Positions 3,396 to 54,945 of a stretch of DNA of 61,790 bases are shown here, piece by piece. Each line of letters opens with the position of its first letter. Position 1 is the stretch's first letter. The stretch is from positions 1 to 61,790 of the IMG/VR virus record IMGVR_UViG_3300050821_016472. The stretch is one strand, 5' to 3'. The translations under genes and the position numbers were made by a program. The notes below the pieces were generated by a model. The model was not told the origin of the DNA, searched no databases, and was given only the letters and a program-made list of their open reading frames with translations. The stretch is from a virus.

Positions 3396-3818
3396 ATGTC
3401 GGACGGGTTCTGGCTCGAGATTGAAGAGAGCGGGCACGAGCTCCGAGATGCATGGGCGGCCGGTGTTTTTGACGGCGAGGGTTCCGTCTACCTCGAACGG
3501 AATTGCGGTGGCTACCGGATGACCGTCTCGATCGTTCAAAGCGCGCCGCGCGGGGCGCCGCCACCCCTCATGCTCTCGACATTGCGTGACGAGCACGGGG
3601 GCTCGCTCACCAAGGGCGAGCGCCCGAAAAAGACTACGCACCGGCAGATCTGGCGCTGGGTCGTGAGCGCAAGGAAAGCCGAACGGTTCCTCAACCGCAT
3701 CGTGCCCCATGTCGTGGCGAAGCTCCCCCAAGTGCGACTAGCGCTGCGTTCGCGTTCATTGCCCCGGCGTGACCTCGGCGCCGTTTGCCTTGAGCTTCGT
3801 CGGCTCAAGAAGCTCTGA
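3396..3818 (+). CDS. LAGLIDADG-family homing endonuclease
   Basis: 140 residues from ATG at 3396. The segment AWAAGVFDGEGSVYL (about residues 19-33) is the LAGLIDADG helix with the acidic residue and GEGS turn, followed by a beta strand as in the family. There is one motif, so it would act as a homodimer to cut an asymmetric or pseudo-palindromic site and promote spread of its own gene. It has its own promoter-like element and lies free-standing, not visibly inside an intron or intein. The lower GC and less CTC-biased codons of its middle hint at separate acquisition. Confidence 0.75.
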   Translation: MSDGFWLEIEESGHELRDAWAAGVFDGEGSVYLERNCGGYRMTVSIVQSAPRGAPPPLMLSTLRDEHGGSLTKGERPKKTTHRQIWRWVVSARKAERFLNRIVPHVVAKLPQVRLALRSRSLPRRDLGAVCLELRRLKKL

Positions 3819-6801: not shown

Positions 6802-7013
6802 ACCGCTTCGCGTTGCGCTGGGACGAAGCCCGCGCCGAGTACGTGTGGCCCGGGCGCCCCCTCGCCGACGGGTGCGCCGATCCCAAGTGTGTCGCGCGCG
6901 CCGGCGGCCCTCGGCGTGCTCGCCGGATCCGTGATGCGCTCCGCGGCTCGCGCATGCCGCGGGCGTGTCGGCGCCACGCGATCCACATCCGCGCCGGGTG
7001 GTGCTTCCCGTGA
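6798..7013 (+). CDS. Small Arg-rich protein
   Basis: 71 residues from TTG at 6798, the start overlapping the previous stop as TTGA. It has ADPKC, then a basic stretch, and single Cys and His residues (RACRRHAIHIRAGWCFP) near the end, a possible zinc site. A TTG start in a TTGA overlap is used repeatedly in this genome. Confidence 0.55.
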   Translation: MNRFALRWDEARAEYVWPGRPLADGCADPKCVARAGGPRRARRIRDALRGSRMPRACRRHAIHIRAGWCFP

Positions 7014-7237
7014 GCCGAGCCCGCCGCGCCGTCACGCCGTGCAAGCACACGCCCGCCGGCGGCGGCATGGGCGGGGGGCACGTGCGCCTGTTCGCCTTCT
7101 CGTACTACGACCTCGCGGCCCTCCTCGACACGACGCCGGCGGCGGTGCGCACCCTCGTCGCCTCGGGGCGGCTCGATCCCACCTCACTCGACTCGGTTTG
7201 CCGCGCGTGGGCGCGGCGGCTCAAGCTGGTCGCATGA
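7010..7237 (+). CDS. Small HTH-like protein
   Basis: 75 residues from GTG at 7010 (GTGA overlap). YYDLAALLDTTPAAVRTLVA (about residues 32-51) reads as a helix-turn-helix of the MerR/excisionase or sigma-region type. It lies directly before the large terminase gene and overlaps its start; a small DNA-binding protein at this place could alternatively be the terminase small subunit. Too short to decide. Confidence 0.6.
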   Translation: MSRARRAVTPCKHTPAGGGMGGGHVRLFAFSYYDLAALLDTTPAAVRTLVASGRLDPTSLDSVCRAWARRLKLVA

Positions 7238-8916
7238 GCGCCGCGGTCTCTCTCCACCTCAGCGAGGAGGCGCTCGACGACGCGCAGCGGTGGCTCGAGG
7301 ACGAGATCGAGCTCGCGCGCACCGACCCCGCGCTCTTTTGCGGCCACGTGCTCCGCCACGATCGGACGGGCAAGCCGATCACGATGGCCACCATGCACGA
7401 CGAATGGCACGGGCTCATGTCCGCCTACTCGCGGCTGATCCTGTGGTCACACGTCGAGGGGGGGAAGACGACGCAGCTCACCGGGCGCCTCGCCTGGGAG
7501 ATCGGCCGCGACACGCACAAGCGGTTCGCGATCGTGGGGATCTCGCAGGGCGCGGCCTCGAAGATCCTCGTCTCGGTGCAGAAGTACCTCGAGAGCGAGC
7601 AGTTCAAGGAGGTCTTCCCCGAGGTCAAGCCGGGGCCGTTGTGGACGAAGACCGCGTTCACCGTGAAGCGGAACGTCTACTCGAAGGACCCCACGCTCCA
7701 AGCCGTGGGCGCTCGAGGCCACATCGTCGGGGCCCGGCTCGACGGCGTCATCCTCGACGACGTCATCGACCACCAGAGCACGCGCACGCCCGAGCAGCGG
7801 CGCGAGACGCTCGTCTGGTACCTCTCGGAGATCGTCGGCCGGCTTACCGAGGACGCCTTCGTGTGGGTGGTCGGGAACGCCTACTACTCGGACGACTTCA
7901 TGCACGAGCTGGCGCTCAAGCACGGGTTCCGGTGGGCGCGCTACCCGGTCGCCAACGACCAGGGCGAGCCGAACTTCCCCGGCGAGTGGACGAAGGAGCG
8001 GATCCGGAAAAAGGAGGACGAGCTCGGGGGCAAGGGCTCGCCCGAGGCGAAGCGCCAGCTCTATTGCGTGCCGCGCTCGGACGAGTCCTCGCGGGTGCAG
8101 CAAGCGTGGATCGATGCGTGTCTCGCGCGCGGCGAGGGGCTCGGCATGCCCGGCCGCATCTCGCCCGAGCGCCTCGCCGAGCTCTCGGTGCCCCTCGACC
8201 CCGAGCGCCCCGAGGCCGGCTACATCCCGGCGACCACGCACACGGGCGTGGACATCGGCGTCGGCAAGGGGAAGAAGCACGCGAAGACCGTGCGCTTCAC
8301 GCTCCTACGCTACCCGACGGGGGACATGCGCGTGGTGGGGCTCGAGGCCGGCCGGTGGTCCGCGCCCGAGATCGTGTCGGGCATCCTCGCCGACCAAGAG
8401 CGGTTCAACAGCCTCGTCGCGGTGGAGAGCAACGGCGCGCAGAAGTTCCTCATCGACAACGCGCGCGAGGAGGACAAGGGCGCCGAGATGACCGTCCTCC
8501 CGCACAATACGGGCTCGAACAAGAACAACCCCGTGCTGGGCCTCGAGAGCGTCTTCGCCGACCTCGCGCGTCAAAGGTTCATAATCCCGAGCGTGCGCAC
8601 CGAGGGCGGCCGCCTCATCGGGGCCACGCCCGAGATCCGCGAGTGGATCCAGGGGATGCTTGACTACAGCCCCGACGCGCACACCTCGGACTTCCTCATG
8701 GCGTGCTGGATCGCGCGTGAGAACGCCCGGCTCGTGCACGTGGGCCACGAGCTGACGAACGTCGACGTCAAGGTGCTCGGGGCCAAGGTCCGCAACCACA
8801 CCGAGGAGACGGCGCTCGAGGACGATGACCTCGCCGCGTGGGCGCCGATCCTCCAAAGCCGGCGCAAGCGAGACACGCGCGACGCACCGCGGCTCGGCCG
8901 CGCTCGGAGGGAGTGA
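7234..8916 (+). CDS. terL: Terminase large subunit (packaging ATPase and nuclease)
   Basis: 560 residues from ATG at 7234 (ATGA overlap). The motor cuts concatemeric DNA and pumps it into the prohead through the portal. An ATPase-type N-half has WSHVEGGKTT at residues 71-80 as a degenerate Walker A and DGVILDDVID at about 170-179 as Walker B. The C-half has an RNase H-like nuclease pattern, with an acidic strand in HTGVDIG, a Glu in LVAVESNG and an Asp in HTSDFLMAC. The length is usual for the family. Walker A lacks the typical GKS/T placement after a small residue loop, a known variation among large terminases. Confidence 0.85.
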   Translation: MSAAVSLHLSEEALDDAQRWLEDEIELARTDPALFCGHVLRHDRTGKPITMATMHDEWHGLMSAYSRLILWSHVEGGKTTQLTGRLAWEIGRDTHKRFAIVGISQGAASKILVSVQKYLESEQFKEVFPEVKPGPLWTKTAFTVKRNVYSKDPTLQAVGARGHIVGARLDGVILDDVIDHQSTRTPEQRRETLVWYLSEIVGRLTEDAFVWVVGNAYYSDDFMHELALKHGFRWARYPVANDQGEPNFPGEWTKERIRKKEDELGGKGSPEAKRQLYCVPRSDESSRVQQAWIDACLARGEGLGMPGRISPERLAELSVPLDPERPEAGYIPATTHTGVDIGVGKGKKHAKTVRFTLLRYPTGDMRVVGLEAGRWSAPEIVSGILADQERFNSLVAVESNGAQKFLIDNAREEDKGAEMTVLPHNTGSNKNNPVLGLESVFADLARQRFIIPSVRTEGGRLIGATPEIREWIQGMLDYSPDAHTSDFLMACWIARENARLVHVGHELTNVDVKVLGAKVRNHTEETALEDDDLAAWAPILQSRRKRDTRDAPRLGRARRE

Positions 8917-9134
8917 TGGAGATCCAGGTCAACGGCCGCTTCCACCACATCGAGAAGCGGACGCTCACGTACACGGACGTCGTGGGGATCGCCGGGTGCC
9001 TCGGCTTCGACCACGTGGAGGTGCGGTGGCGCCCGTACGAGGCGCGCGCCGCCGCAAAGGGCGGGGAGCTCAAGCCCGGCGAGAGCGTGACCGCGGCGCC
9101 CGACATGGTCTTCTTCGTCCGCCGCCGGCTCTGA
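8916..9134 (+). CDS. Ubiquitin-like beta-grasp protein (multi-ubiquitin type)
   Basis: 72 residues from ATG at 8916, overlapping the terminase stop by one base. MEIQVNGRFHHIEK forms a first beta hairpin, TYTDVVGIAGC the helix, VEVRWRPYE a strand, then GELKPGESVTAAPDMVFFV. That last pattern (Gly-x-Leu-x-Pro-Gly-x-Ser-Val ... Asp-x-Met-Val-Phe) is how I remember bacterial multi-ubiquitin domains, which accompany E1- and E2-like enzymes. The protein is a single domain and ends RRRL without a terminal Gly, so processing or conjugation is doubtful. No E1, E2 or JAB peptidase gene is in the window. Assignment is from motif memory. Confidence 0.55.
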   Translation: MEIQVNGRFHHIEKRTLTYTDVVGIAGCLGFDHVEVRWRPYEARAAAKGGELKPGESVTAAPDMVFFVRRRL

Positions 9135-9252: not shown

Positions 9253-10320
9253 ATGCCCAACGACCCGATCCCCACCGACCCCGAAGCGGTACTCACCGTC
9301 CTCGCCGCTCTATTCGGCAGCCCACCGATCCGAGAGCAAACCGCCATCTACATCCGCCGCGTCCTCGACGGGGCCACGGCCCTCCATGACGCACAGACCT
9401 TCAACGCCAAGCTCCGCGAGGCCGCCGGCGCGAGCCCCGACGCACCGCTCGTCGAGTACGTGCGCTCTCTCCGTGCGAAGGCCGACGTGTTCGACCGGCA
9501 CGAGACGCCCGACGGCGGCATGTCGAACGAGTGGACGGTGAGTAAAGGCGCGCTCGAGAACGCCCTCGGCGCCACAACCAGCCTTAGCGCCGTCGAGCTG
9601 CTCAAGAAGGTCCGAGAGGCGGCGGCGATCGCGGGCACGCTCACCCACGCGCTGGGCTACACCCCGCACACGGAGACGCTCGTGGCGATCGGTGACGAGC
9701 ACGCGGCCCTCGAAGCGTTGATCAAGGTGCTCGGCGGCAGGCTCGAGGACGAGACGACCGTGGCCGCGGCTGCGCGGCTCTGCTCGGACTTCGTGGCGAG
9801 CAACGGCGCCGAGGAGCGGAAGCGGCTACGCGAGCTGCTCGCGGTGGTGGGCACCCCGTATGGAACGCTCGGGACGCTCGAGGCGCTGAGCGACGGGCAA
9901 CGCCGGGCGGTGGCACTCTCGGCCGAGGCCGCGGGCTTTCGCGACGCGCTCCAGGGCGCGCTCGGGGACGACCACGCGGTCTTCGACGGCGACGCACCGA
10001 CCCCGCTCGACGTGGTGGGGGCGCTCGCGCGCATGGTGGACGAGAGCGAGCGCAAGGCGGCGGCGGCAAGCCGCGAGGCCGACCGGCTCAAGTCGCACAT
10101 CGACTTCTTCGAGGAGTTCAAGGCGCTCGCCGAGCGGTTGAACGCCGAGGCGTTCACCAAGGCGCAGCAGCTCGAGGGGCGCGAGACCGAGCTACTCGAG
10201 GCGGGTGCACGCCTCCGGCGGGACGCGCGCAACGCCCTCCGCGCCTACACCCGCAAGGGGTACTCGCGTTCGCAAAAGATGGTCGCGCTCAACTCGCTAA
10301 AGCTGATGCTCGAGGGCTGA
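9253..10320 (+). CDS. Hypothetical protein with C-terminal coiled coil
   Basis: 355 residues from ATG at 9253, seven bases after a good promoter. The N-terminal 280 residues are alpha-helical with a repeated Leu/Ala pattern. Residues about 270-345 (DESERKAAAASREADRLKSH and following) form a strongly charged heptad pattern, a likely coiled coil. It heads a run of short coupled genes reaching 13584. No family recognised. Confidence 0.7.
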   Translation: MPNDPIPTDPEAVLTVLAALFGSPPIREQTAIYIRRVLDGATALHDAQTFNAKLREAAGASPDAPLVEYVRSLRAKADVFDRHETPDGGMSNEWTVSKGALENALGATTSLSAVELLKKVREAAAIAGTLTHALGYTPHTETLVAIGDEHAALEALIKVLGGRLEDETTVAAAARLCSDFVASNGAEERKRLRELLAVVGTPYGTLGTLEALSDGQRRAVALSAEAAGFRDALQGALGDDHAVFDGDAPTPLDVVGALARMVDESERKAAAASREADRLKSHIDFFEEFKALAERLNAEAFTKAQQLEGRETELLEAGARLRRDARNALRAYTRKGYSRSQKMVALNSLKLMLEG

Positions 10321-10917: not shown

Positions 10918-11321
10918 GCCTCCTCGGCGTGGATGACGGCGGCATCGGCTCGCTCCGCCGGGTGATCATGCAGCACGTATACTGGTACCCGGCGCTCGCA
11001 CGGACGCGGGTGGCGACCTTCCTCGAGACCACGGGCCACCGGTGGGTCGCCGTCTTCACCGCGAGCGACGGCCGCAAGCACGAGGCGGAGCTCCTCATCG
11101 AAGAGATCCTCGACGTTGGGGATCCCGACCGGTGGGCCCGCGAGGTTGTCCGGTACGTGGCCGCGTTGTGGTACCCGATCCGCTTGCAAGGGCGCATCGG
11201 AACGCGCGATCGTCTCGAGCCCCACCCGGTGCACGGCGAGCCCCGCCCGCGCCGGTGGCACCCTCTCACTACCTTTCGCATCGGCCGCCACGAGCGGCCA
11301 AGGAGCCCCATCCATGAGTAA
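10914..11321 (+). CDS. Hypothetical protein
   Basis: 135 residues from TTG at 10914 (TTGA overlap). Central strand-helix pattern (WVAVFTASDGRKHEAELLIE), with a basic Pro/His-rich end. Its last bases overlap the start of the glycosyltransferase gene, whose ribosome-binding site AGGAG lies inside it. No family recognised. Confidence 0.6.
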   Translation: MSLLGVDDGGIGSLRRVIMQHVYWYPALARTRVATFLETTGHRWVAVFTASDGRKHEAELLIEEILDVGDPDRWAREVVRYVAALWYPIRLQGRIGTRDRLEPHPVHGEPRPRRWHPLTTFRIGRHERPRSPIHE

Positions 11322-12534
11322 GCGCAAGCCCAGCCGCCCCGGGCGCAACCATAAGGACCGCCCCGTGACCTACTCGGACGGCCGCCCCAAGGTCATCGCC
11401 GTCATCATGGCGGGCAACGCCGAGAGCACGATCGAGCGCGCGGTGCGCTCGGTGGCGCAGTGGGTGGACCGGATCTTCATCCTCGACACGGGGATCACCG
11501 ACGCCACCCTCATCAAGGCGCGCGCGGCCGCGGCCCACGTGCCGCTCCAGACGCGCCGGTGGGCGTGGCGCAACGACTTCGGCGCCGGCCGCAACGCGGC
11601 GCTCCACGAGGCCGCCAAGGGGGCGCCGCCGGGCGCGTGGCTCCTCATCCTCGACACGGACGAGTGGTACACGTGGCTCCCCCCGATGGCGCCGAGCGTC
11701 CTCGCCGCGACGCTCGGCGGCGCCGCGCCCGAGACCGACGCCTTCCTCGTGCCCCACTTCTCGGGCTCGTACGTGCAACCGCGGTTCGTGCGCGCGTCCT
11801 CGGTGCTCGACGGCAAGGCGAAGTTCAGCGGCGCGGTGCACGAGGCCATGAGCCACAACCACGCGGCGCAGCGCACGCTCGCCGGTCTCGTGGCCTTCAA
11901 CGACGAGGCGAAGACCCCGGTGCAGTCGCTCAAGAAGTGGCGCCGAGACCTCAAGATCCTCGAGCCCTTTTGCCGCAAGAACCCCGAGGCACAGCGCGAG
12001 CGCTACTACCTCGGGCAAACGCACGAGTGCCTCGGTGACCTCGCCAAGCCCACCGACGAGGCCAAGGCGGCGCACCACTACACCCTGGCCGCGGCGGCAT
12101 ACACGCTCGCGGCGCGCGGCACGGGGTGGGGCGAGGAGGGCGCGTGGGCGGCGTACAAGGCGGCCGTCCTCACGTCGAACCCGCTCGGCCGCCAGCCCAC
12201 GCGAGAGGAGCGCTTGACCGCTCGCGCGATCGCGGTCGCGGGCCTCGAGCGCTACCCGATCGCCGAGCTCGCGTGGCTCGCGGGGTACGAAAGCTTCTAC
12301 CTCGGCCTGCCCGCCGAGGCGCTCGCCTTCGCCCGCATGGCGATCGCCACCGGCCTCGCCGAGCAAGACGGGGCGGATCTCTACGGCCGCACCTCGTTCA
12401 AGGACGTACGCATGCTCTGGGAGAAGCCGTACGAGCTTGCGGCGTACGCCGCCGACAAGCTCAAGAACCCCGGGCTCGCCACCTACTACCGCGAGAAGGC
12501 GAAGGCGGCGCTCACCGCGCGCGGGGGGGTATGA
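11314..12534 (+). CDS. Family 2-type glycosyltransferase with helical repeat tail
   Basis: 406 residues from ATG at 11314 with AGGAG at 11301-11305. The start PKVIAVIMAGNAESTIERAV is the nucleotide-sugar strand and helix of GT-A enzymes, and LLILDTDEWY (about residue 109) carries the DxD metal-binding motif. A GAVHEAM segment (about 170) matches the late family motif. Residues about 225-400 are Ala/Tyr/Leu-rich helix pairs resembling TPR repeats. It would transfer a sugar to a protein, DNA or polysaccharide acceptor; phages use such enzymes to modify host surface, their DNA or their virions. Acceptor unknown. Confidence 0.8.
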   Translation: MSKRKPSRPGRNHKDRPVTYSDGRPKVIAVIMAGNAESTIERAVRSVAQWVDRIFILDTGITDATLIKARAAAAHVPLQTRRWAWRNDFGAGRNAALHEAAKGAPPGAWLLILDTDEWYTWLPPMAPSVLAATLGGAAPETDAFLVPHFSGSYVQPRFVRASSVLDGKAKFSGAVHEAMSHNHAAQRTLAGLVAFNDEAKTPVQSLKKWRRDLKILEPFCRKNPEAQRERYYLGQTHECLGDLAKPTDEAKAAHHYTLAAAAYTLAARGTGWGEEGAWAAYKAAVLTSNPLGRQPTREERLTARAIAVAGLERYPIAELAWLAGYESFYLGLPAEALAFARMAIATGLAEQDGADLYGRTSFKDVRMLWEKPYELAAYAADKLKNPGLATYYREKAKAALTARGGV

Positions 12535-20529: not shown

Positions 20530-21648
20530 ATGGACGTCCGCACCACCATCGCCGGCAACGAACGCCGTTGCCCTCAGTGCACGAAGTGGAAGCTCTGGCC
20601 CGCGCTCTTCATCGGACGCCGCGGCCGCCCCGTGAACCGCTGCCAGGTCTGTCAGGCGCGCTACGCGGGCTGGGGCTCGCTCTCGCTCGAGGAGCGCACG
20701 GCGCGCCGCGCGGCGCACGAGGTGCCGATCCCCGGCGCCGGCGGCGTGCGCGTGCGGTGGACGCCGGTGACGCACAACGTGAAGACCGGGCCGATCCCGG
20801 TGAGCGTGACCGACCGCGACTCGTGCCCCACCTCGTGCTCGTACCGCGGCGCGGGGTGCTACGCCGAGGAGTCAAACCACACGCGGCTGCACTGGGGCCG
20901 CACGGCCGAGCGCGGGCTCGAGTGGCCCGCGTTCCTCCGCAAGGTGCGCGCGCTGCCGCGGGGGCAACTGTGGCGGCACAACGAAGCCGGCGACCTCCCC
21001 GGGCCCGGCGACGTGATCGACGCTTCGCTCCTTGCCGGGCTCGCGCGAGCGAACGAGGCCGCCGGCGCGCGCGGCTTCACGTTCACGCACAAGCCGCTGA
21101 CGCATGCGAACGAGGCCGCGATCCGCCACGCGATCGCGCACCGCTTCGCGATCAACCTATCGGCCGACACGATCGCCGAGGCGGACGCGCTCGTGGCGCG
21201 GGGCGTCGCGCCGGTCGCCGTTGTCGTACCCGCCGACCACCCCGCGCGCGCGACACGTACCCCAGCCGGTAGTACGCTTGTGGTGTGCACCGCCCAAACG
21301 AACGAGGGGATGACTTGCGAGCGGTGCCGGCTCTGCGCGGTGCTCGGGCGCAAGAGCATCATCGCGTTCCGTGCACACGGCCTCCGCCACGAGCTCGCAA
21401 GCTCGATCGCTCGAGGCGAGGAGGAGCCCCATGAAGTACGCGGCGTTCGTGATCCTCTTGATCCTCGGCGAGGTGCTCTTGCGGCTCTACCTCTCGCGCC
21501 GGCGAGCGGTGGCAAAGCACGCCGTGTACTGCCCGTTCTGCCACAAGGCGCGGACGCTGCTCGGCCCCACGGCGGGCATGTGGCCGCGCAAGGGCGTGTC
21601 GGTGCCCGAGGTGCCGTGCGAGCCCTGCCGTCAGGAACTCCGCGGTAA
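20530..21648 (+). CDS. Phage protein with radical-SAM-like Cys motif (DUF7227-like)
   Basis: 372-codon frame from ATG at 20530. CPQCTKWK and CQVCQARY at the start form a zinc ribbon. Then DSCPTSCSYRGAGCYAE and HTRLHW match a widespread actinophage-type family of unknown function (DUF7227-like, from memory) whose CxxxC...C spacing recalls iron-sulfur proteins. A second cluster ECRLC-like (CERCRLCAVLGRKSIIAFRAHG) ends the recognisable part near residue 285. The last 75 codons overlap the gene at 21431 in another frame and look unnatural, so the true end is probably near 21430. Confidence 0.6.
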   Translation: MDVRTTIAGNERRCPQCTKWKLWPALFIGRRGRPVNRCQVCQARYAGWGSLSLEERTARRAAHEVPIPGAGGVRVRWTPVTHNVKTGPIPVSVTDRDSCPTSCSYRGAGCYAEESNHTRLHWGRTAERGLEWPAFLRKVRALPRGQLWRHNEAGDLPGPGDVIDASLLAGLARANEAAGARGFTFTHKPLTHANEAAIRHAIAHRFAINLSADTIAEADALVARGVAPVAVVVPADHPARATRTPAGSTLVVCTAQTNEGMTCERCRLCAVLGRKSIIAFRAHGLRHELASSIARGEEEPHEVRGVRDPLDPRRGALAALPLAPASGGKARRVLPVLPQGADAARPHGGHVAAQGRVGARGAVRALPSGTPR

Positions 21649-22219: not shown

Positions 22220-22606
22220 ATGGCCGCGAAACCGTACCGCCGGAACCTCGTGATCCGCCAAGGCGCGGCGCAAGGCTTCCTCTTCGTCGTCCGCGACATC
22301 AACGGCTCGCCGATCGTGCTCTCGGGCTGGGGCGCGCGCGCGATGATCCGAGGTGCGTACGCGGATCTCGTCCCCCTCGTGACGCTCGGCCTGGGCACCG
22401 GGCTCGCCGTCGTGAACGACCCCACCTCGAGCACGCTGAGCGGCCTCCAGGTGCAGCTCTCGTCCACGCAGGCGACCACGGTGGCGACGAGCGGGATCGG
22501 CAAGGGCGTCTGGGATCTATGGCTCGACCCGAGCGGTACACCCGACGGGAGCTCGTTCATGCTGATCAAAGGGGAGGTCGTCGTTGAGCCGACCGCGACG
22601 CGATGA
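22220..22606 (+). CDS. Tail or baseplate accessory protein, BppU-N-like
   Basis: 128 residues from ATG at 22220, three bases after the previous stop. [20 protein letters not shown], then [15 protein letters not shown], and [12 protein letters not shown] at the end form the pattern of small beta-sandwich proteins found before receptor-binding or fibre genes (resembling the N-terminal domain of upper baseplate proteins). It probably links fibres to the virion or helps them assemble. The next gene overlaps by four bases. Confidence 0.6.
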
Positions 22607-25530
22607 GCCAAGCCGAAGCCGTAGTCGTTGAGCTGGTCGTCGGCCCCACCGGTGCAACCGGCGGCACCGGCGCGGCGGGGAACACGGGCGCCACCGGCGC
22701 CGCGGGCGCGACGGGGGGCACGGGCCCGGTCGGGCCGCCGGGGCCGACGGGTGCCGTGGGTGGCCCGGGTGCGGTCGGTGGTCTCGGCCCTACCGGCCCC
22801 GCCGGCGCAACCGGTGCGACGGGTGGTACGGGCGCGGCGGGTGACGTCGGCCCTACGGGTGCGACCGGCGCGATGGGGCCGGCGGGTCCGACGGGCTCGG
22901 CGGGTCCGACCGGCGCCGCGGGCTCGGCGGGTGTGACCGGGCCGCAAGGCGCGACCGGCGCCACGGGCGGCACGGGTGCAACGGGGGCGACCGGCTCGGC
23001 CGGCCCCGCGGGCGCTACGGGGGCGGCAGGCGCGACCGGCAGCGCGGGGGTGGCGGGTGGCACCGGTGCGACCGGCGCGGCCGGCAGCGCGGGGCCCACG
23101 GGGCCCACGGGGCCAAGCGGTGCCACGGGCGCGACCGGCGCCGCCGGCGGTGTGGGGCCGACCGGTGCGGCGGGGGCGACCGGTGCGACCGGCACCGCCG
23201 GCGTCACCGGGGCGACCGGCGGGACGGGACCGACGGGCGCTCAAGGTGCGACCGGCGTGGCGGGCCCCACGGGTGCCACGGGCTCGGCGGGCACCGACGG
23301 CGCTCAAGGCGTCACCGGCCCGACGGGCGCCACGGGCGCGCAGGGCACACCGGGCGCGGTGGGCGCAACCGGCGCCACCGGCAACGTCGGCCCCGGGGGC
23401 AACGTCGGCGCGACCGGCGGCACCGGCCCGCAGGGGAATACCGGCCCCACCGGCCCCCAAGGCTTGCCCGGCATCCCGGGGCCGCAGGGCCCCGCGGGCT
23501 CGGGTGGCAGCGGTGGCGGCGGCACGGGCCCCACCGGCGCTCAGGGGAACACCGGCCCGACCGGTGCGACCGGCGCAACGGGCACGGCGGGCACGAACGG
23601 CTCGACGGGCGCAACGGGTGCAACCGGTGCGACGGGATCCGGTGGCTCGGCGAACACCGAAGAGAAGGAACCGGTCGATCTCTTCATCGGCGGCGGCCTC
23701 GCCGCGCTCGCGCCCTTCTCGGCGGCGGGCGTGACGATCCAGCCGCCCGGGTGCCTCTGGGTCAATGACCCCTTCACCGACACCACGCAGACACGCTTTA
23801 CAATCGTCAAGGACTCGACGGTCACGGTCACGAGCACGAGCGGCGAGATCACCGTCGTCAACGTCGGGCTCGACGCGAACACGTGGATCTCGGAAGGGCA
23901 GGCGTTGCCCGCGCTCAATGCATGCGTCTCGGTCGAGATCCTCGCCGCGAGCAACTCCGGGGGGACGCCCGTTTACGAGGATTACTCGGTCGGCTTCGGT
24001 GAAACCGGCACGCTCGCGAACTCGGGGTACGGGTTCTTCGCGTGCTGGTCAAAGCAAGCCGGCAACGTGCACTTCCAGGTCTTCAACGGCTCCAACCAGA
24101 ACAACCTCGCGAGCGTCTCGGTCGCGTGGGTGGCGCCGTTCTTCCTCGGCATGTCGATGGTCGCGGGCTCACTTTGCTGTTGGTACAAGAAGCTCGTCAC
24201 CGACCCGTGGACGTTCATCACGAGTTACGACGCCTCGAGCCTCTTCGAGCCGCGAGCGCACGGCTCGTACGTGATGAGCCAGTGGCACGGGATGATCCAC
24301 ACGGCGAGCAAGGCATTCTCGACGGGCGGACCATCGACCACCGTGAGCTTCACGAACCTCAAGATCGGGCTCTTCGGCGCGTGCGGTATGCGCGACATCG
24401 CCGTCGTGACGAACCCCGCGGGCACGCCGATCAACCCGAGCGGCGACGTCGTCTACCTGACCACGAGCCTGCTCGACGAGCGCGCCGCCGGCTTCATGGG
24501 GCTCATGTCCTACGACCTCACGTCGCGGACGCTCACGATGCTCGGCTCGTTCTGGAACAACCGCATCACGCCAAGCGGCACGAGCGCGGCGCCGTCGATC
24601 ACCCTCGCGGGCACGTTCGGCGTCACCAACGGATCGGCGGTGGTCTCAACGACGAGCAACCTCGTCGGCGGTAACGGTCTGATCGCGGCGGTATACCCCG
24701 GCGCCGTCGTGGACTTTGGCGCGCAGTCGCTCACGCCCTACGTCGTGCAATCGGTGGGATCGAGCTCGATCACGCTGACCGCGGTGTACACGGGCACGAC
24801 GAACGGCGCGACGACCGCGCGGCTCGGCGTGGTGCAAGACGACGACGCGGGGCAGTTGATCGACAACCAAGATGGGACGTTCCACTTCCTCGCAACGACA
24901 TGGGGCAACCAGGGCACGCAGACCGGCAACATCCACATCTCGCACAAGCTCGAAACGGTCTTGAACCTATACTCGGGCGGCAACGTCATCACGCAGGCGA
25001 AGACCTTCTCGCTCCCGAACCCCACGGGCGCCGGCGAGTACGATCCGAACATGGTGCTCGTCTCGGGCACATGGTACCTCGCGGTCGCCTCGGGTACGGT
25101 CTCGCAAGCGGGCAACCCGAGCCAGGTCTTCCCGTTCCTCGCGAGCAGCACCGACCTCGTCACGTGGAGCGAGGTGGGGCGCGACCCGGCGACGAGCTTC
25201 CAAGGCGAGGGCTCGCGCACCGTGTTCCTCGCGGGGCAGCATTGGTTCCTTTGGTCGAGCTGGCCGCCGAGCGTGTACTCGCTCCCGGACACGTACCCCG
25301 AGCTGCCCGGCTACCGAGACTGCAACGTCTACGACATCACCATGACGAAGCGAGGGAACTTCCTGATCCCGCAGTACCAGAACGACACGTACCCGCCGCA
25401 CCCGATGATCATCCCGCACGGGCACTTCGCGCACCTGATCACCTTCGACGGCGCCAAGTTCAATAACGTCGCGGACACGAACGGGAACCTCCGGCACTAC
25501 CGCGCCGATCGGTACCGGGCCTGGCAGTAG
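22603..25530 (+). CDS. Collagen-like tail fibre with beta-propeller-like tip
   Basis: 975 residues from ATG at 22603 (ATGA overlap). A short N-terminus ([11 protein letters not shown]) leads into about 110 Gly-X-Y triplets (residues about 13-345), mostly GAT, GPT and GAA, which would form a trimeric triple helix. Residues about 350-580 are a beta-rich stalk. The last 390 residues contain [19 protein letters not shown] and a later [14 protein letters not shown], hallmarks of blades in GH43/GH32-type propellers, so the tip probably binds or cleaves a host glycan. Catalytic acids were not confirmed. Receptor-binding fibre is the likely role. Confidence 0.75.
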
Positions 25531-25557
25531 CTCGCTCGCGACGGCCCACGGGCTCGG

Positions 25558-25566
25558 TGATAGCGT
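25558..25566 (+). promoter_or_regulatory. Extended -10 (TGATAGCGT), leaderless type
   Basis: TGATAGCGT, six bases, then ATG at 25573 of the second collagen-like fibre. Confidence 0.55.
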
Positions 25567-25572
25567 TGCCGC

Positions 25573-27942
25573 ATGTCGTTCGGCTTCGAGGATCCCGAGC
25601 ACGTAGTCATCGAGCTCGTGGTCGGGCCCACGGGCGCGACGGGTGGCACCGGCGCCGCGGGTAACACCGGGGCGACCGGCGCCGCCGGTGCGACGGGTGG
25701 CACCGGGCCGGTAGGCCCACCCGGCCCGACCGGCGCGGCCGGTGGCCCCGGCGCGCAAGGCAACCCCGGCGCGCCCGGCCCCACCGGCGTGCAAGGTAAC
25801 GCGGGCCCCACCGGGGCCACGGGGAACACCGGCGCGACGGGCGCAACGGGTGCTCAAGGGAACACCGGGCCGACCGGCGCGCAAGGTGTCGCGGGTGCGG
25901 CGGGCACCGCGGGCACCGCCGGCGCGACGGGATCGACCGGCGCGACGGGTGCGACGGGTGCGCTCGGCCCCACGGGGGCGACGGGATCGACCGGTGCTAC
26001 GGGCGTCGGTGTGACCGGGCCCACCGGTGCGACGGGTGCTGCGGGCGTGGACGGTGCGGCGGGGGCAACCGGCGCCATCGGTGCCGCGGGCTCGGCCGGC
26101 GCCACCGGGCCGACCGGTGCGACTGGTGCCGCGGGTACGGCGGGGGCGACGGGTGCCGCGGGTGCCAACGGCACGAACGGGGCAACGGGCGCCGCGGGCC
26201 CTACCGGCGCGACAGGCGCGGCGGGGCCGACGGGGGCCACGGGTGCCCAAGGCGTGACCGGCGCGGCCGGCGTGACCGGCGCCACGGGCGCGGCGGGGCC
26301 CTCGGGTGCCACGGGGGGAACCGGCGCCACCGGCGCGCAAGGGCCGGCCGGCGGCACGGGGCCGATCGGTGGCGTGGGTGCGACCGGGCCCGGGGGTGCC
26401 ACCGGGGCAACGGGTGCGGCGGGGGCGGCCGGGGGTACCGGTGCAACCGGGCCGACCGGGCCGCAAGGTGCAACGGGCGCGGCGGGCCTCAACGGCGCGA
26501 CGGGCGGGATCGGCCCCACCGGCGCGGCCGGCGCCACCGGCCCCACCGGGGCAACCGGCGCTCAGGGCGTGCAAGGTGCGGCCGGCGCCACGGGTGCGAC
26601 CGGGAACGTGGGGCCCGCCGGTGACCTCGGCGCAACCGGCGCCACGGGGCCGCAAGGTGCCACGGGCCCGCAAGGCAACGTCGGCCCCACGGGGAACACG
26701 GGCGCGCAAGGGATCCCCGGTGCCTTTGCCGGCATCGGGAACACCGGTGCAACGGGCGCTCTCGGCCCGGTCGGCCCGACGGGTCCGATCGGCCCCACCG
26801 GCGCCACCGGGGCGACGGGGGCCACCGGGGCTCAAGGGATCACAGGCCCGACCGGGGCAACGGGTGCGACCGGCGCTCAGGGCATCACCGGCCCCACCGG
26901 CGCCACGGGTACCGCGGGGACGAACGGGACCAACGGGGCAACCGGCGCAACGGGGTCCACCGGCGCGACCGGCGGTACGGGCCCCACCGGTGCGACGGGG
27001 CCAACGGGCGCGACGGGCTCGCAGGGGATCACAGGGCCCACCGGCGCCACGGGCGCAACGGGGCCGGGCGGCGCGGGCTCGATCGGGCCGTACGGTGGGG
27101 CCGCGACGTTCTCGTATACGTTCGACACGGGCACGAGCAACGCGGACCCGGGCTCGGGGAAGCTGCGCGTGAACAACGCGACCGAGAACACGTCGACGGC
27201 GGTCTACGTGAGCAAGACCGACGCGAACTCGGCGACTCTCACGAACGCCCTCGCGCAGTTCGACGCGAGCACCTCGACGCTCAAGGGCTATATCCGGCTC
27301 GTCAAGGTCTCGGATACCACGCAATTCATCCTCTTCTCGATCTCGAGCCGCACCGATCACACCGCGTACACCGAGCTCGCGGTCACCGAGATCACGTCGA
27401 ACACGGCGAGCCCCTTCGTTGCGAGCGACGCGATCCTCATGGCGTTCGATCGGAACGGAGACCTCGGGCCCACGGGGGCAACCGGCGCGACCGGCACGGC
27501 GGGATCGAACGGGGCGACGGGCGCAACGGGTGCAACCGGCGCCACCGGTACGAACGGATCGAACGGCGCCACCGGTGCGACCGGGGCAACGGGTGCGACC
27601 GGTGCCACCGGGGCCACCGGCGCAAGCGGGTCGTTCGTCGGTGGCTCGACGCAGACCACGGGCACAACGAACCTCGCCGTCGGCGCGACTTACAACCGCG
27701 CGAACGCCACCGGTGCGCAATGCGTCTACCAGCTCCCTGCGAGCGACTCGGACGGCGCCCCCCACCAGATTGCGCTCATCGGCGGGACGTTCGGGTACAA
27801 GGTCACGCCCCCCACCGGGTGGTCGCTGATCAACCCGAACACCGGCGCCACGCTCGCGGCGAACGCCTCGTACACCTCGACGACGATCGAGGCGTACACG
27901 TGGGTCGCCGACACGACAGACACGCTTTACATCCCGTTCTAA
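25573..27942 (+). CDS. Collagen-like fibre protein, paralogue of preceding gene
   Basis: 789 residues from ATG at 25573. After a short N-terminus ([10 protein letters not shown]) the first 45 residues of collagen triplets are nearly identical to the preceding fibre. The triplet region spans residues about 17-500, is followed by a beta domain (about 505-630), a second short collagen stretch (631-687) and a C-terminal beta domain of about 100 residues. Triplets use Thr heavily in third position. Likely a second, longer fibre or an alternative fibre; it lacks the propeller tip. Confidence 0.75.
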
Positions 27943-27951
27943 GGAGCCCCG

Positions 27952-29133
27952 ATGGACCTCAAGAAGTACACGCCCGCCTCCGCGCTCGCCGCGCTCGTGC
28001 TCGCGGTGGTCTCGCTCGTCTTGAGCCTCGGGCCCCACGCCTCGGGCGCACCACCGCTCGGCAAGGTCGGCAACCGTGCGAACCCCACCGGCACCGGCTT
28101 CGTCCACCAGACCGGCGGCGTCGCCGACACGGCGGCCCTCTCGGCGGCCTCGGTGGGGACCGCCGCCGGGCGCGCCTCGAGCGCGGGCGCGAGCACGCTC
28201 TTCGCCGGCACGGACAACGCGGAGCTTTCGATCGACGACCCCACCGCGTCGGCATGGCGGAACTTCGGGATTACCCGTCAGCTCGTGAAGCCCCCGCTCG
28301 CGAGCTCGTACACGATCGCCGGCACCGTGGGCGTCCTCCAGCGCGGTGACTCGTTCCTTGCGATGTGCCCCGACGGCGGCGGTAACGGGAACATGGGGCT
28401 CCAATCTCAGACGCTCTCCACGAGCACGTTCTGGATGGTCACCCTCGTCGCGCAGTGGGCGCCGTACTTCACGCATACGCAATATCCGGACTTCGGGCTC
28501 TGCGTGAGCACGGGCACCACCACGAGCGACACGGCGTATTGCCTGTCGAGCTGGTTGAACAACGGCACCCCGGGGATGCACAACCAGACCGAGCACCCCG
28601 GCGCGGGGCGGATCACTCTCGGTTACGAGCAAAGCGCGGTCTTCAACCAGTTCGCCGGCGGGAACGGGCTCAACTGGTTTCGGTTCCTCATGGACGGGAC
28701 CGACCTGCACGAGCAGTGGTCGAACAACGGCATCGTTTGGTCCGACTACGAAACGATCGCGGCCCCGAGCTCGCTGCTCTACTACGGCTGGACCATGGGC
28801 TCGCCGGGGGGCGGGAACGGTCAGAGCTTCGCGGTCATCTATGAAAACAACTACTCGACGAGCCCGAACGTCACCTCGGCCACGGTCTCGACGTGCACCA
28901 CCTCGGGCAACCCCACCACGATCACGACGCAGGCCGCCCACAACTTCATCAGCGGGGACACGGTGGCGATCCACGGCAGCACCGGGAACACCGCGATCAA
29001 TACCGGCACGGGGAACGACCTCTCGGGCGGCTGGGGAATCAAGGTCACGGGCTCGACGACGTTCCAGGTCTCGGCGACCGGCAACGGGAGCTGCACGAGC
29101 GGCAACGGGACGATCGTGATGCTCTCGCGCTAG
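27952..29133 (+). CDS. Putative exported or virion beta-rich protein
   Basis: 393 residues from ATG at 27952 with AAGGAG at 27941-27946. Residues 9-28 (SALAALVLAVVSLVLSLGPH) form a hydrophobic segment after a short basic start, a signal peptide or signal anchor. The rest is beta-rich with many Thr, Gly, Asn and Ser, like virion or secreted adhesin domains. The C-terminal domain (FISGDTVAIHGSTGNTAINT) resembles phage fibre modules. It ends convergently with the minus-strand gene at 29130, the stops overlapping. Confidence 0.6.
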   Translation: MDLKKYTPASALAALVLAVVSLVLSLGPHASGAPPLGKVGNRANPTGTGFVHQTGGVADTAALSAASVGTAAGRASSAGASTLFAGTDNAELSIDDPTASAWRNFGITRQLVKPPLASSYTIAGTVGVLQRGDSFLAMCPDGGGNGNMGLQSQTLSTSTFWMVTLVAQWAPYFTHTQYPDFGLCVSTGTTTSDTAYCLSSWLNNGTPGMHNQTEHPGAGRITLGYEQSAVFNQFAGGNGLNWFRFLMDGTDLHEQWSNNGIVWSDYETIAAPSSLLYYGWTMGSPGGGNGQSFAVIYENNYSTSPNVTSATVSTCTTSGNPTTITTQAAHNFISGDTVAIHGSTGNTAINTGTGNDLSGGWGIKVTGSTTFQVSATGNGSCTSGNGTIVMLSR

Positions 29134-36243: not shown

Positions 36244-38283
36244 ATGGACGCGAAGGCCCTCCGCGAGAAGGTAGAGTCACTCCTCGCCGACGCCGGCAAG
36301 CGCGCCGGCGCCTTCGAGCGCGGCGAGAACCTCCCGCCGTACCTCATGCCCCAGGGGGCGCACGCACTCGACCGCGACGAGGTGCTCTCGGTGCCGGTGG
36401 CCAAGGCGGGCTTCGGCGGCGCGATCGGGGACGGTGCCGCCTCGAGCCTCGACGTGCAGGGCACCAACGCCCTCCCCAGCTCCGATGACGTCCACACGCT
36501 CTTCACGATGGCGGGGGCGCTCTTCCCCCCGTACGACCCCGAGGTGCTCTCGAGTCTCCTCGAGCACTCGAACGCGCTGCGGCCCAACGTGGACGCCTAC
36601 AAGACGAACGTCGACGGCTTCGGTCACCAGCTCGAGGCGATCTTCGACCCCGACGATCCCAAGGTGGACGAGCAGGTCGCCGACGCGCTCTACCTCGATC
36701 GGCTCGAGGAGGCGGAGTCACGCGGCGAGCTGACCGCGCCGTTCCCCACCCCCGACGAGGTGGCGGCGAAGAAGAAAGAGATCCTCGCGCTCGCCCGTCT
36801 TGAGCGCGCGAAGGTCGAGACGTTCACGGACCATTGCGCCGGCGACATCTCGTTCAAGGAGCTCCGGCGCCGCATGCGCGAGGATCTCGAGGTGACCGGT
36901 AACTCGTACTGGGAGGTCGTGCGCAACGGCGAGAAGAAGATCGCCGGCTTCCACCTCGTGCCCTCGTACTCGATGCGGCTCGCCCCGATCGAGCACGTGC
37001 TCCACGAGGTCAAGACGCCGCGCAAGGTCTCGCCGATCCGCTACGCCGACGTGCGGGTCAAGAAGCGTTTCCGCCGCTACATCCAGATCGTCCTCGACCG
37101 CATCGTCTACTTCAAGGAGTTCGGCGACCCGCGGGTCATCTCGAAGCGCACGGGGCGCGTGTTCGCGAATGAGGACGAGCTCGTGCGCTCGGCGCAGCAC
37201 GACGGGCCCGCCACCGAGATCATCCACTTCCGCGTGTGGTCACCGCGCTCGCCGTACGGGATCCCGCGGTGGATCGGGAACCTCCTCTCGGTGCTCGGCT
37301 CGCGCGCGAGCGAGGAAGTGAACTTCCTCTACTTCGACAATAAGGCCGTCCCCCCCCTCGCCCTCCTCGTCTCGGGCGGCAAGCTGGCCGCCGGCGCGCA
37401 AGACCGGATCGAGAGCTACATCGCCGACAACATCCGGGGGAAAGAGAACTTCCACAAGATCCTCTGCATCGAGGCCGAGAGCGCGAAGGCGGGCAAGGGC
37501 CCCGCGCAAGTCGAGACCGGGAAGGTCCGCCTCGAGCTCGTGCCGCTCCGCGACGCGCAGCAAGACGACGCGCTCTTCCAGGTCTACGACCAGAACAACC
37601 AGGACAAGATCGGCCAGTCGTTCCGCGTGCCTCGTCTCCTCCGCGGTGACACCCGAGACTTCAACCGCGCCACCGCCGAGGCCGCGCTCGAGTACGCCGA
37701 GACCCAGGTGTTCCAAGGCGAGCGCGAGGCGTTCGACGACATGATCAACCGCCTGATCTTCGCCGCGCTCGGCGTGCGGTTCTGGCGCTTCAAGTCGAAC
37801 TCGCCGGTCAACCGCGACCCGATGGATCTCGTGAAGATCCTCGACGTGCTCTGCGCGCGCGGCGTGCTCACCGCGGGCGAGGCGCGCGAGGTGGCGGCCG
37901 ACATCTTGAACAAGCGGATCGCCAAGGTGGACGCCGACTGGACGCGGCAGCCGATGGTCATGACGACCGCCGGCATGATCTCGGAGCCCGACGGCTCGAT
38001 CCTCGAGCCCGGTGCGGCCGCGGGCGGTGGCCCCATCGCCGGCGCGCTCCCCGCGGGCCCGCCCGCCCCCGACGGCACGCCCACCCCGAACCCCGCGCTC
38101 CGAGACCTCACCGCCGTCACCGGCCGCCTGATCGCGCTGCGCGACGGCATGCGCAAGCGCTCGCAGGCGCCGTACGCGGCATCGCTCCGCAAGGCCACCG
38201 AGGAGGAAACGACGATCACGCTCGAGGTCCCGAAAGACGTGCTCGACTCGTGGGTCGTGCGCGACGATGCGGCGGCTGAGTGA
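36244..38283 (+). CDS. Portal protein (PBSX type)
   Basis: 679 residues from ATG at 36244. Portal proteins form the dodecameric ring at one head vertex through which DNA is packaged and ejected and to which the neck attaches. LRPNVDAYKTNVDGFGHQLE, GNSYWEVVRNGEKKIAGFHL and SPYGIPRWIGNLLSVLGS are the conserved segments of the PBSX-type portal family. The C-terminal 100 residues are Pro/Ala-rich and then basic. It is longer than most (450-550), with extra N- and C-terminal parts. The head-morphogenesis gene overlaps its end by 17 bases. Confidence 0.85.
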   Translation: MDAKALREKVESLLADAGKRAGAFERGENLPPYLMPQGAHALDRDEVLSVPVAKAGFGGAIGDGAASSLDVQGTNALPSSDDVHTLFTMAGALFPPYDPEVLSSLLEHSNALRPNVDAYKTNVDGFGHQLEAIFDPDDPKVDEQVADALYLDRLEEAESRGELTAPFPTPDEVAAKKKEILALARLERAKVETFTDHCAGDISFKELRRRMREDLEVTGNSYWEVVRNGEKKIAGFHLVPSYSMRLAPIEHVLHEVKTPRKVSPIRYADVRVKKRFRRYIQIVLDRIVYFKEFGDPRVISKRTGRVFANEDELVRSAQHDGPATEIIHFRVWSPRSPYGIPRWIGNLLSVLGSRASEEVNFLYFDNKAVPPLALLVSGGKLAAGAQDRIESYIADNIRGKENFHKILCIEAESAKAGKGPAQVETGKVRLELVPLRDAQQDDALFQVYDQNNQDKIGQSFRVPRLLRGDTRDFNRATAEAALEYAETQVFQGEREAFDDMINRLIFAALGVRFWRFKSNSPVNRDPMDLVKILDVLCARGVLTAGEAREVAADILNKRIAKVDADWTRQPMVMTTAGMISEPDGSILEPGAAAGGGPIAGALPAGPPAPDGTPTPNPALRDLTAVTGRLIALRDGMRKRSQAPYAASLRKATEEETTITLEVPKDVLDSWVVRDDAAAE

Positions 38284-45073: not shown

Positions 45074-46033
45074 ATGAGCACGAACGGCTTCCTCCCGAAC
45101 CTGACCTTCCTCCAGAAGGCAGACCTCGCCCTCTCGGACCTCACGAGCGGCGGCGGCATTCTCCAGCCGGAGACCGCGCAGAAGTTCATGAGGATTCTCA
45201 TCGACGAGAGCGTCGTGATGAAGCTCGCGACGGTGGTCCCGATGAAGTCCTACAAGATGGAAGTTCCGAAGATCCGGTTCGCCGGCCGGATCCTCCGCGC
45301 CGGGCAGGTGGGCGTCGCGCTCGCCGCCGGTGACCGGTCGAAGCCGAACACCACGAACGTGGAGCTCGACGCGGCGCTCTTCAAGGCCGAGGTCAGGCTC
45401 CCGAACGAGGTGCTCGAGGACAATATCGAGCGCGATCAGCTCAAGCAGACGATCATGCAACTGATGGGTGAAGCCATCAGCCGCGACATGGACGAGGTTG
45501 TGGTCCAGGGCGACCCCGCCTCGAGCGACCCGTTCCTCGCGAACCTCCCCGCCGGCGGGATGCTCGTGCAGAGCACCTCGCACGTCGTGGACGCGCAGAC
45601 GCAGACGCTCAACAAGAACGTCCTGAAGTCGCAGCTCAAGACCATGCCGACGCCGTTCCTCCGGAACTCGTCGATGCTGAAGTACCTCACGCACAACTAT
45701 GCGGAGATCGACTTCCGCGACACGATCGCGAGCCGGCAGACGCCGGGCGGTGACTCGTACCTCCTCGAGAGCGGCGAGGCGAGCTACTCGGGCATCCCCG
45801 TCGTGAAGGTGCCGCTCTTCCCGACGAACCTCGGCTCGGGCACCAACTGCACTGACGTCGTCCTCACGGACCCGAAGAACGTGACCGTCGGTATCTGGCG
45901 GGAGATCCGCATGGAAACCGACAAGGACGTGTCGGCCGGCGTGGTCATCATCGTCGCGAGCCTCCGCTTCGACATGCGCTACGCCGAGGAAACGGCGGTC
46001 GTGAAGGCGATCAACGTCAAGGTGAGCGGCTGA
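45074..46033 (+). CDS. Major capsid protein (HK97 fold)
   Basis: 319 residues from ATG at 45074. It forms the icosahedral shell. [20 protein letters not shown] at the N-terminus, the spine-type helix [20 protein letters not shown], then [20 protein letters not shown] and the late [20 protein letters not shown] are the usual segments of HK97-type capsid proteins in phages with XkdF-type proteases. The gene is isolated by short gaps with a GC hairpin behind it, suited to high-level expression. Confidence 0.85.
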
Positions 46034-54465: not shown

Positions 54466-54945
54466 ATGTCGATCGTCGGTCAGCCCCGCAGCTACTTCAA
54501 AAAGTTCCTCTTCACCGTGGAGATCCCCGGTGTGGGCTTCGCCGGCTTCCAGAAGTGCTCGGAGCCCAAGAGCACGACCGAGGTGATCGAGCAGTGGGAG
54601 GGGGGCGCGATCGTCCCCGACCAGAGCCCGGGGCGGATGAAGTTCGAGGCGGTCACCCTCGAGCGCGGCGCGACCAAGGATCTCGATCTCTACGCCTGGT
54701 ATCTCCAGGTCAACGACGCGGCGGCGGGCACGGGCGCGATCGACGACAAGTATAAGAAGCGCGTCAACATCGTGCAGCGTGACCGCGACGGCTCGGTGCT
54801 CCGGAAGTGGGAGCTCAAGAAGGCTTGGCCGAGCGCGTACGGACCGGGCGATTGGGATAACACCGTGTCCGCGAATGGGATCGAGACGATGACGCTCACG
54901 TACCAGCTCGCCGAGCCGAACGACAAGCCCGCCGCGGCGGTGTGA
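54466..54945 (+). CDS. Tail tube protein (T4 gp19-like)
   Basis: 159 residues from ATG at 54466 with GGAGG at 54457-54461. SYFKKFLFTVEIPGVGFAGF, EVIEQWEGGAIVPDQSPGRM, LERGATKDLDLYAWYLQVND and VLRKWELKKAWPSAYGPGDW are the typical segments of the T4 gp19/CIS tube family, which stacks as hexameric rings inside the sheath. Length is normal. A hairpin follows. The stop forms part of the TGATAGCGT element. Confidence 0.9.
   Translation: MSIVGQPRSYFKKFLFTVEIPGVGFAGFQKCSEPKSTTEVIEQWEGGAIVPDQSPGRMKFEAVTLERGATKDLDLYAWYLQVNDAAAGTGAIDDKYKKRVNIVQRDRDGSVLRKWELKKAWPSAYGPGDWDNTVSANGIETMTLTYQLAEPNDKPAAAV

Follow-up and report, generated by a model that had tools for sequence, protein, structure and literature searches.

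A Multi_ubiq domain protein encoded directly behind the large terminase gene of a myovirus, a possible mimic of a host ubiquitin-like domain

The window, by which we mean the whole stretch of 61,790 bases that was analysed (IMG/VR record IMGVR_UViG_3300050821_016472, 70.8% GC), belongs to a contractile-tailed phage (myovirus), with genes for the portal at 36244 of the window, a minor head protein at 38267, the major capsid protein at 45074, the tail sheath at 52166 and the tail tube at 54466-54945. The phage genome is probably incomplete in this record, since open frames are interrupted at both ends, neither terminal repeats nor tRNAs are present, and the genes scanned in the 61.8 kb include none recognisable as a replication gene; a related record (G006) has a length of 109 kb. 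The gene of the large terminase subunit, terL, lies on the plus strand at 7234..8916 and encodes about 560 amino acids (PHROG 38 with E 9e-35, together with tblastn matches to phage terminases). Its start overlaps, by ATGA, the end of a small open reading frame of 90 amino acids (6965..7237, plus strand, taken from the ORF list and assigned to no family), which is a possible upstream member of the terL operon. Directly behind terL, on the same strand at 8916..9134, is the gene under study, herein called ubl, whose product of 72 amino acids, MEIQVNGRFHHIEKRTLTYTDVV...ELKPGESV...DMVFFVRRRL, is assigned by PF14452, AlphaFold2 and Foldseek to a single beta-grasp domain of the Multi_ubiq family, resembling the C-terminal domain of BubA.

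As the junction of the two genes shows, the terL stop codon TGA (8914-8916) and the ubl start codon ATG (8916-8918) share one base within a TGATG overlap (8914..8918, plus strand), and a GGAGG at 8906..8910 on the plus strand, within the end of terL and 5 nt ahead of the ubl ATG, is a strong and well-placed Shine-Dalgarno sequence as read from the sequence. Because the ATG overlaps the terL stop and the GGAGG lies five bases ahead of it, the two genes are probably translationally coupled. Read directly, the sequence bears out the coordinates, the length of 72 residues and the one-base overlap with the terminase gene that the preliminary description had given; of its wording that ubl is fused in operon to the terminase, the operon and the probable coupling hold, while a fusion does not, the two proteins being separate. 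The ubl frame is a genuine coding sequence: its GC contents at the three codon positions are 0.69/0.44/0.99 against 0.68/0.49/0.93 for genes of the same phage, and its codon score is 0.41 where other genes have 0.31 +/- 0.09 and the remaining five frames score at most 0.05. Further downstream comes a gene of about 355 amino acids (9253..10320, plus strand, from the ORF list), whose product has no Pfam family above the cut-off and no PHROG family. In the surroundings of the operon, a family 2 glycosyltransferase (PF00535, 30.9 bits) is encoded a few genes past it at 11314-12534, and upstream of terL a weak LAGLIDADG-like match at 3396-3818 (17 bits, below the cut-off) is a possible homing endonuclease.

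The protein, hereafter phage Ubl, is almost certainly a phage-encoded Multi_ubiq domain. In Pfam it matches Multi_ubiq (PF14452) at 31.4 bits against a cut-off of 24.5 (E 2.3e-7) over model positions 2-67, that is 66 of 69 positions; this is the sole Pfam family that matches it with E up to 10, and 8916-9134 gives the one match to PF14452 in the whole record. Single-sequence tblastn comparisons are weak, with E 0.02 for the huge phage LR756511, 0.6 for a Rhizobium plasmid multiubiquitin and 0.6 or more for plasmid multi-ubiquitins, and chance was therefore tested separately by a profile against shuffled sequences: a leave-one-out profile, made from 11 other Multi_ubiq domains with phage Ubl excluded, scores it at 38.2 bits, compared with 10.3 for the highest-scoring of 2000 shuffled versions. 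In hhalign against four bacterial C-terminal domains, the probability is 97 and E is 2.1e-11 over 69 columns. The multi-ubiquitin pattern noticed earlier in the letters is thus confirmed by the curated Pfam cut-off, the profile against shuffles and hhalign in agreement. Moreover, when phage Ubl is compared with multi-ubiquitins of three domains, identity is 34-35% for the C-terminal domain and 17-23% for the first and second, and among BubA-like domains phage Ubl is by sequence of the C-terminal-domain type. PADLOC, NCBIfam and PHROGs yielded zero matches to it; it also falls outside the ThiS/MoaD sulfur carriers, as it ends with RRRL, has no Gly-Gly and matches no profile of that family. No close relatives were detected by pattern scans of IMG/VR with the protein alone, with the alignment A3 or with the huge-phage copy, scans that reach just fairly close or motif-sharing relatives, and a candidate with a match of 43 amino acids (H6, MT836130) was dropped, its record having no PF14452 match. 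In a tree of the domains, both phage copies, that of the window and that of LR756511, sit on long branches, and the tree does not decide on a common origin.

The predicted structure agrees with this assignment. AlphaFold2 with a five-sequence alignment gives a beta-grasp fold at pLDDT 84.4 and pTM 0.73; phage Ubl was also refolded alone as a guard against circularity, and the model without alignment (pLDDT 79.4, pTM 0.65) keeps the order of strands and helix unchanged. In a Foldseek search of the PDB, the E. coli multi-ubiquitin 9cd2 comes top for both models at probability 1.00, with TM 0.80 for the model from the alignment and 0.65 for the one folded alone, the next matches being filaments of Citrobacter multi-ubiquitin, the complex 9ea8 of BubCD with BubA(155-229), and ThiS; the E-values of 0.002-0.007 are modest, as expected for 72 residues. 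Both models are thus closest to multi-ubiquitin structures of the BubA type, and the beta-grasp fold, so far read from the letters, passes the check by structure prediction; in BFVD no significant match to a viral protein structure was obtained. That the similarity is a coincidence in a small beta-rich protein is very improbable: although the query is short and the single-pair E-values are weak, Pfam, the leave-one-out profile, hhalign and the structure matches of the homologue-free model concur, and the leave-one-out profile and the alignment-free fold matches largely refute such a reading.

In bacteria, multi-ubiquitins belong to operons of type 6e, where one to three Ub-like repeats of 70-75 amino acids adjoin an E1-like gene (PMC1779556, Iyer 2006). 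Phage Ubl, one domain of 72 amino acids, is within this range, and single-domain members also occur in bacteria, with 98 (L177) and 85 amino acids (L005). Multi_ubiq is found above the cut-off in 13 of 398 Pseudomonadota genomes. An E1-like gene stands beside the multi-ubiquitin in 13 of the 14 distinct bacterial homologues examined, and in 11 of the 14 its frame starts ahead of the multi-ubiquitin stop codon; in G392 and G310 it was found close downstream when wider flanks were read, while in G245 a motif scan found no E1-like gene near the multi-ubiquitin. The partners are DUF6791-ThiF fusions or ThiF proteins, and for the one E1-like protein of a homologous operon that was tested against the PDB, a match to Citrobacter BubCD was obtained. 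At two loci (L005, L006) a pair of HTH and ImmA/IrrE proteins is located upstream, which looks like CapH+CapP, as we infer; in a survey of 544 Bub operons, DNA-damage-sensing immune regulators are common, with CapW or CapH+CapP at 219 of the 544 and CapK+CapS at others, and an immune role is suspected while protection against phages is not demonstrated (PMC13373217). A search of IMG/VR with an alignment of the canonical Multi_ubiq domains returned one contig (L266, IMGVR_UViG_3300021477_000244), which bears a complete bacterial-type multi-ubiquitin/E1-like operon and shows that this system itself travels on mobile elements; since the whole operon is present near a recombinase, it is ruled out as a lone phage copy. 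In this contig a small DUF6527-like protein is encoded after the operon and a tyrosine-recombinase-like gene lies a few kb away.

The C-terminus of phage Ubl merits particular attention. Canonical members extend about five residues past FNV with Ser as the last residue (RTGQS, TDKS and similar), and all of the 14 bacterial homologues end in Ser. Phage Ubl ends in ...VFFVRRRL, two residues shorter than the bacterial homologues and without the terminal Ser. A C-terminal Gly is missing as the preliminary description had it, yet this is not distinctive, because none of the 14 bacterial multi-ubiquitins has one either, and the Gly-less C-terminus was accordingly dropped as evidence for a decoy; the distinctive change is the loss of the Ser-ending tail. 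In the 61.8-kb record, profile searches gave no match to ThiF (PF00899), Prok-JAB (PF14464) or Prok-E2_B (PF14461), so that the reported lack of E1, E2 and JAB neighbours is true for this record, which is cut at both ends. A Pfam hit to E1_FCCH at 27952-29130 of the window is noise, with 15.6 bits against a cut-off of 29.5. Of what marks a Bub or type 6e operon, the adjacent E1-like gene, the JAB or E2-like component and the Ser-ending tail are all lacking from phage Ubl and its record. In comparison with BubA and the multi-ubiquitins (PF14452; PDB 9cd2, 9d59, 9d5b, 9ea8, 8u38), phage Ubl therefore has in common the profile match, the beta-grasp fold with the best TM of 0.80 to 9cd2, the resemblance to the C-terminal domain and, with some of them, the single domain, while it differs by adjoining terL, by having neither an adjacent E1-like gene nor an N-terminal extension, by the tail RRRL and by its long branch.

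How these features could fit together is best expressed by a reading inferred from homology, to which we give a probability of roughly 0.4: phage Ubl would imitate a Ubl domain of the host without being conjugatable itself, and would compete for the Bub enzymes. The myovirus would have captured the C-terminal Ubl domain of a bacterial multi-ubiquitin of the BubA type and coupled its expression to terL. As the isolated BubA C-terminal domain, BubA(155-229), has been solved in complex with BubCD (9ea8), a free domain of this type could be expected to dock on the host BubCD or DUF6791-ThiF protein at the site of the last Ubl domain; with its terminal residues replaced, it would dock without conjugation, the altered tail blocking activation or conjugation, and would thus act as a competitive, dominant-negative mimic. 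In a variant of this scheme, the single-domain protein might cap multi-ubiquitin filaments, because multi-ubiquitins form filaments (9d59, 9d5b) and the phage copy has one domain. The phage would be protected late in infection, when terL and the virion genes are expressed. A decoy role is plausible, and that the phage uses the mimic as a dominant-negative inhibitor of the Bub ubiquitination-like pathway may be put forward tentatively. In favour of such a mimic are the family and fold of phage Ubl, its C-terminal-domain type, the match of an E1-like protein from a homologous operon to BubCD, the RRRL tail, the lack of ThiF, Prok-JAB and Prok-E2_B in the record, and a sporadic presence that fits an accessory counter-defence gene, none of the roughly 125 loci and records of related phages having the domain. 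Against it, anti-defence genes often form clusters and belong to the early genes, whereas ubl adjoins terL; the record is incomplete, and an E1 of the phage itself could be encoded elsewhere as in LR756511; and no phage-blocking effect has been demonstrated for Bub operons (PMC13373217). The general statement that bacterial ubiquitin-like systems act against phages is right for Bil and CBASS, and for Bub operons such protection is not demonstrated (PMC13373217). In CBASS, the E1-E2-like Cap2 conjugates cGAS, and T4 Vs.4 is an antagonist of CBASS (PMC10097602). Phage Ubl would be like Vs.4 in being a phage protein directed against an immune pathway that includes ubiquitin-like conjugation, which for phage Ubl is a proposal; Vs.4 itself binds cGAMP and is no ubiquitin mimic (PMC10097602).

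If this reading is true, phage Ubl would to our knowledge be without precedent among viruses of bacteria as an inhibitor that mimics ubiquitin, as well as the first genetic hint of Bub operons acting against phages. A phage that carries just a Ubl of the enzyme-binding type, with its conjugation tail altered, is a testable sign of phages meeting the Bub pathway; the ubl gene makes the anti-phage role of Bub operons testable without settling the question, and its product is a possible tool for blocking the pathway.

Three other functions have to be weighed. Phage Ubl may be a captured fragment of a host gene that has taken on a private role, for example as a scaffold for another partner, or that has no role and is drifting, which is somewhat unlikely. 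It would suit such a history that phage Ubl has a very long branch in the tree of domains and is a single example, none of the collections searched having yielded a close relative; the open frame is intact, with phage-like codon usage, GC3 of 0.99 and a strong ribosome-binding site, and the core motifs are retained with a confident predicted fold, so the gene looks maintained.

It is unlikely, too, that phage Ubl is an active modifier that tags host or phage proteins after activation by an E1, whether one of the host or one that the phage encodes outside the sequenced part of its genome. This possibility is brought up by the one convincing match that tblastn with three queries found among 50,697 phage records, namely LR756511.1, a huge phage of 595 kb, where the C-terminal half of a 148-aa ORF (L008:4779-5225) is a Multi_ubiq domain at 24.6 bits against the cut-off of 24.5. 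About 210 kb from this gene (L265, 280616-282541), the same genome encodes an E1-like ThiF protein of 217 amino acids and a JAB protein of 158 amino acids with the full HxHP...SxxD motif, with two small ORFs between them, possibly a phage-borne conjugation system, and some phages may thus run a real conjugation pathway. As the window record is incomplete at both ends, the same could in principle hold there. However, RRRL replaces the Ser-ending tail of all 14 bacterial homologues, no ThiF, Prok-JAB or Prok-E2_B is present in the 61.8 kb, and the LR756511 copy retains a tail of canonical length (TGDA), which phage Ubl does not. The two copies are alike in being phage-encoded with one Multi_ubiq domain at 31-32% identity, while that of LR756511.1 differs by an N-terminal CxxC extension, its tail and its genomic position, and its genome, unlike the window record, encodes E1-like and JAB proteins. 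The altered tail and the lack of enzymes in the record argue for a different job than conjugation of the LR756511 type. As a second, divergent case, LR756511 suggests more than one way of acquiring such components among bacterial viruses.

It is distinctly unlikely that phage Ubl is a beta-grasp accessory of head assembly or DNA packaging, a partner of TerL, as the preliminary description had offered in its packaging adaptor. For this speak the one-base overlap with terL, with probable coupled translation, and the occurrence of beta-grasp proteins in tail assembly, such as lambda TAPI (PMC1779556). With the Ub-like domain of TAPI in lambda and T1, phage Ubl has in common that a beta-grasp is phage-encoded within an operon of virion genes; TAPI is ThiS/MoaD-related, with a C-terminal Gly and a JAB/NlpC partner (PMC1779556), whereas phage Ubl matches PF14452 alone, has no JAB partner and no PHROG match, and is neighboured by terL and an unassigned gene. 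Its homology, moreover, is to bacterial modifiers. As to its occurrence, the Multi_ubiq domain is found in none of the 80 loci around TerL homologues, a comparison set at 33-43% identity in which no truly close terL relatives were found, and in none of the 48 portal- or capsid-related viral records. The relatives with an 87-89% identical capsid protein are fragments ending short of terL. The related phages covered therefore do not keep the gene beside their homologous TerL genes, which disfavours a packaging adaptor, and with some 125 loci and records devoid of the domain a packaging role is unlikely; for the same reason ubl was probably inserted behind terL as an accessory gene rather than being a constant member of the packaging module.

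Several minor observations were made on these phages. Among the related TerL genes, several (G018, G020, G028, G033, G039) have open frames of about 900-1040 amino acids, and in one of them (G018, L098) a LAGLIDADG/Hom_end insert of 356 amino acids, which ends with HN, interrupts TerL at the Walker A motif and is intein-like. The close relatives G002, G003 and G004 (L116, L118, L120) carry a tandem pair of tail-tube homologues in place of the single one of the window phage. In the window, a DUF7227 protein (239.7 bits), also matched by PHROG 2554 and having a Cys-rich N-terminal segment, is encoded at 20530-21648, and two adjacent genes at 22603-27942 encode long collagen-like proteins of Gly-X-Thr repeats, with an N-terminal segment common to both.
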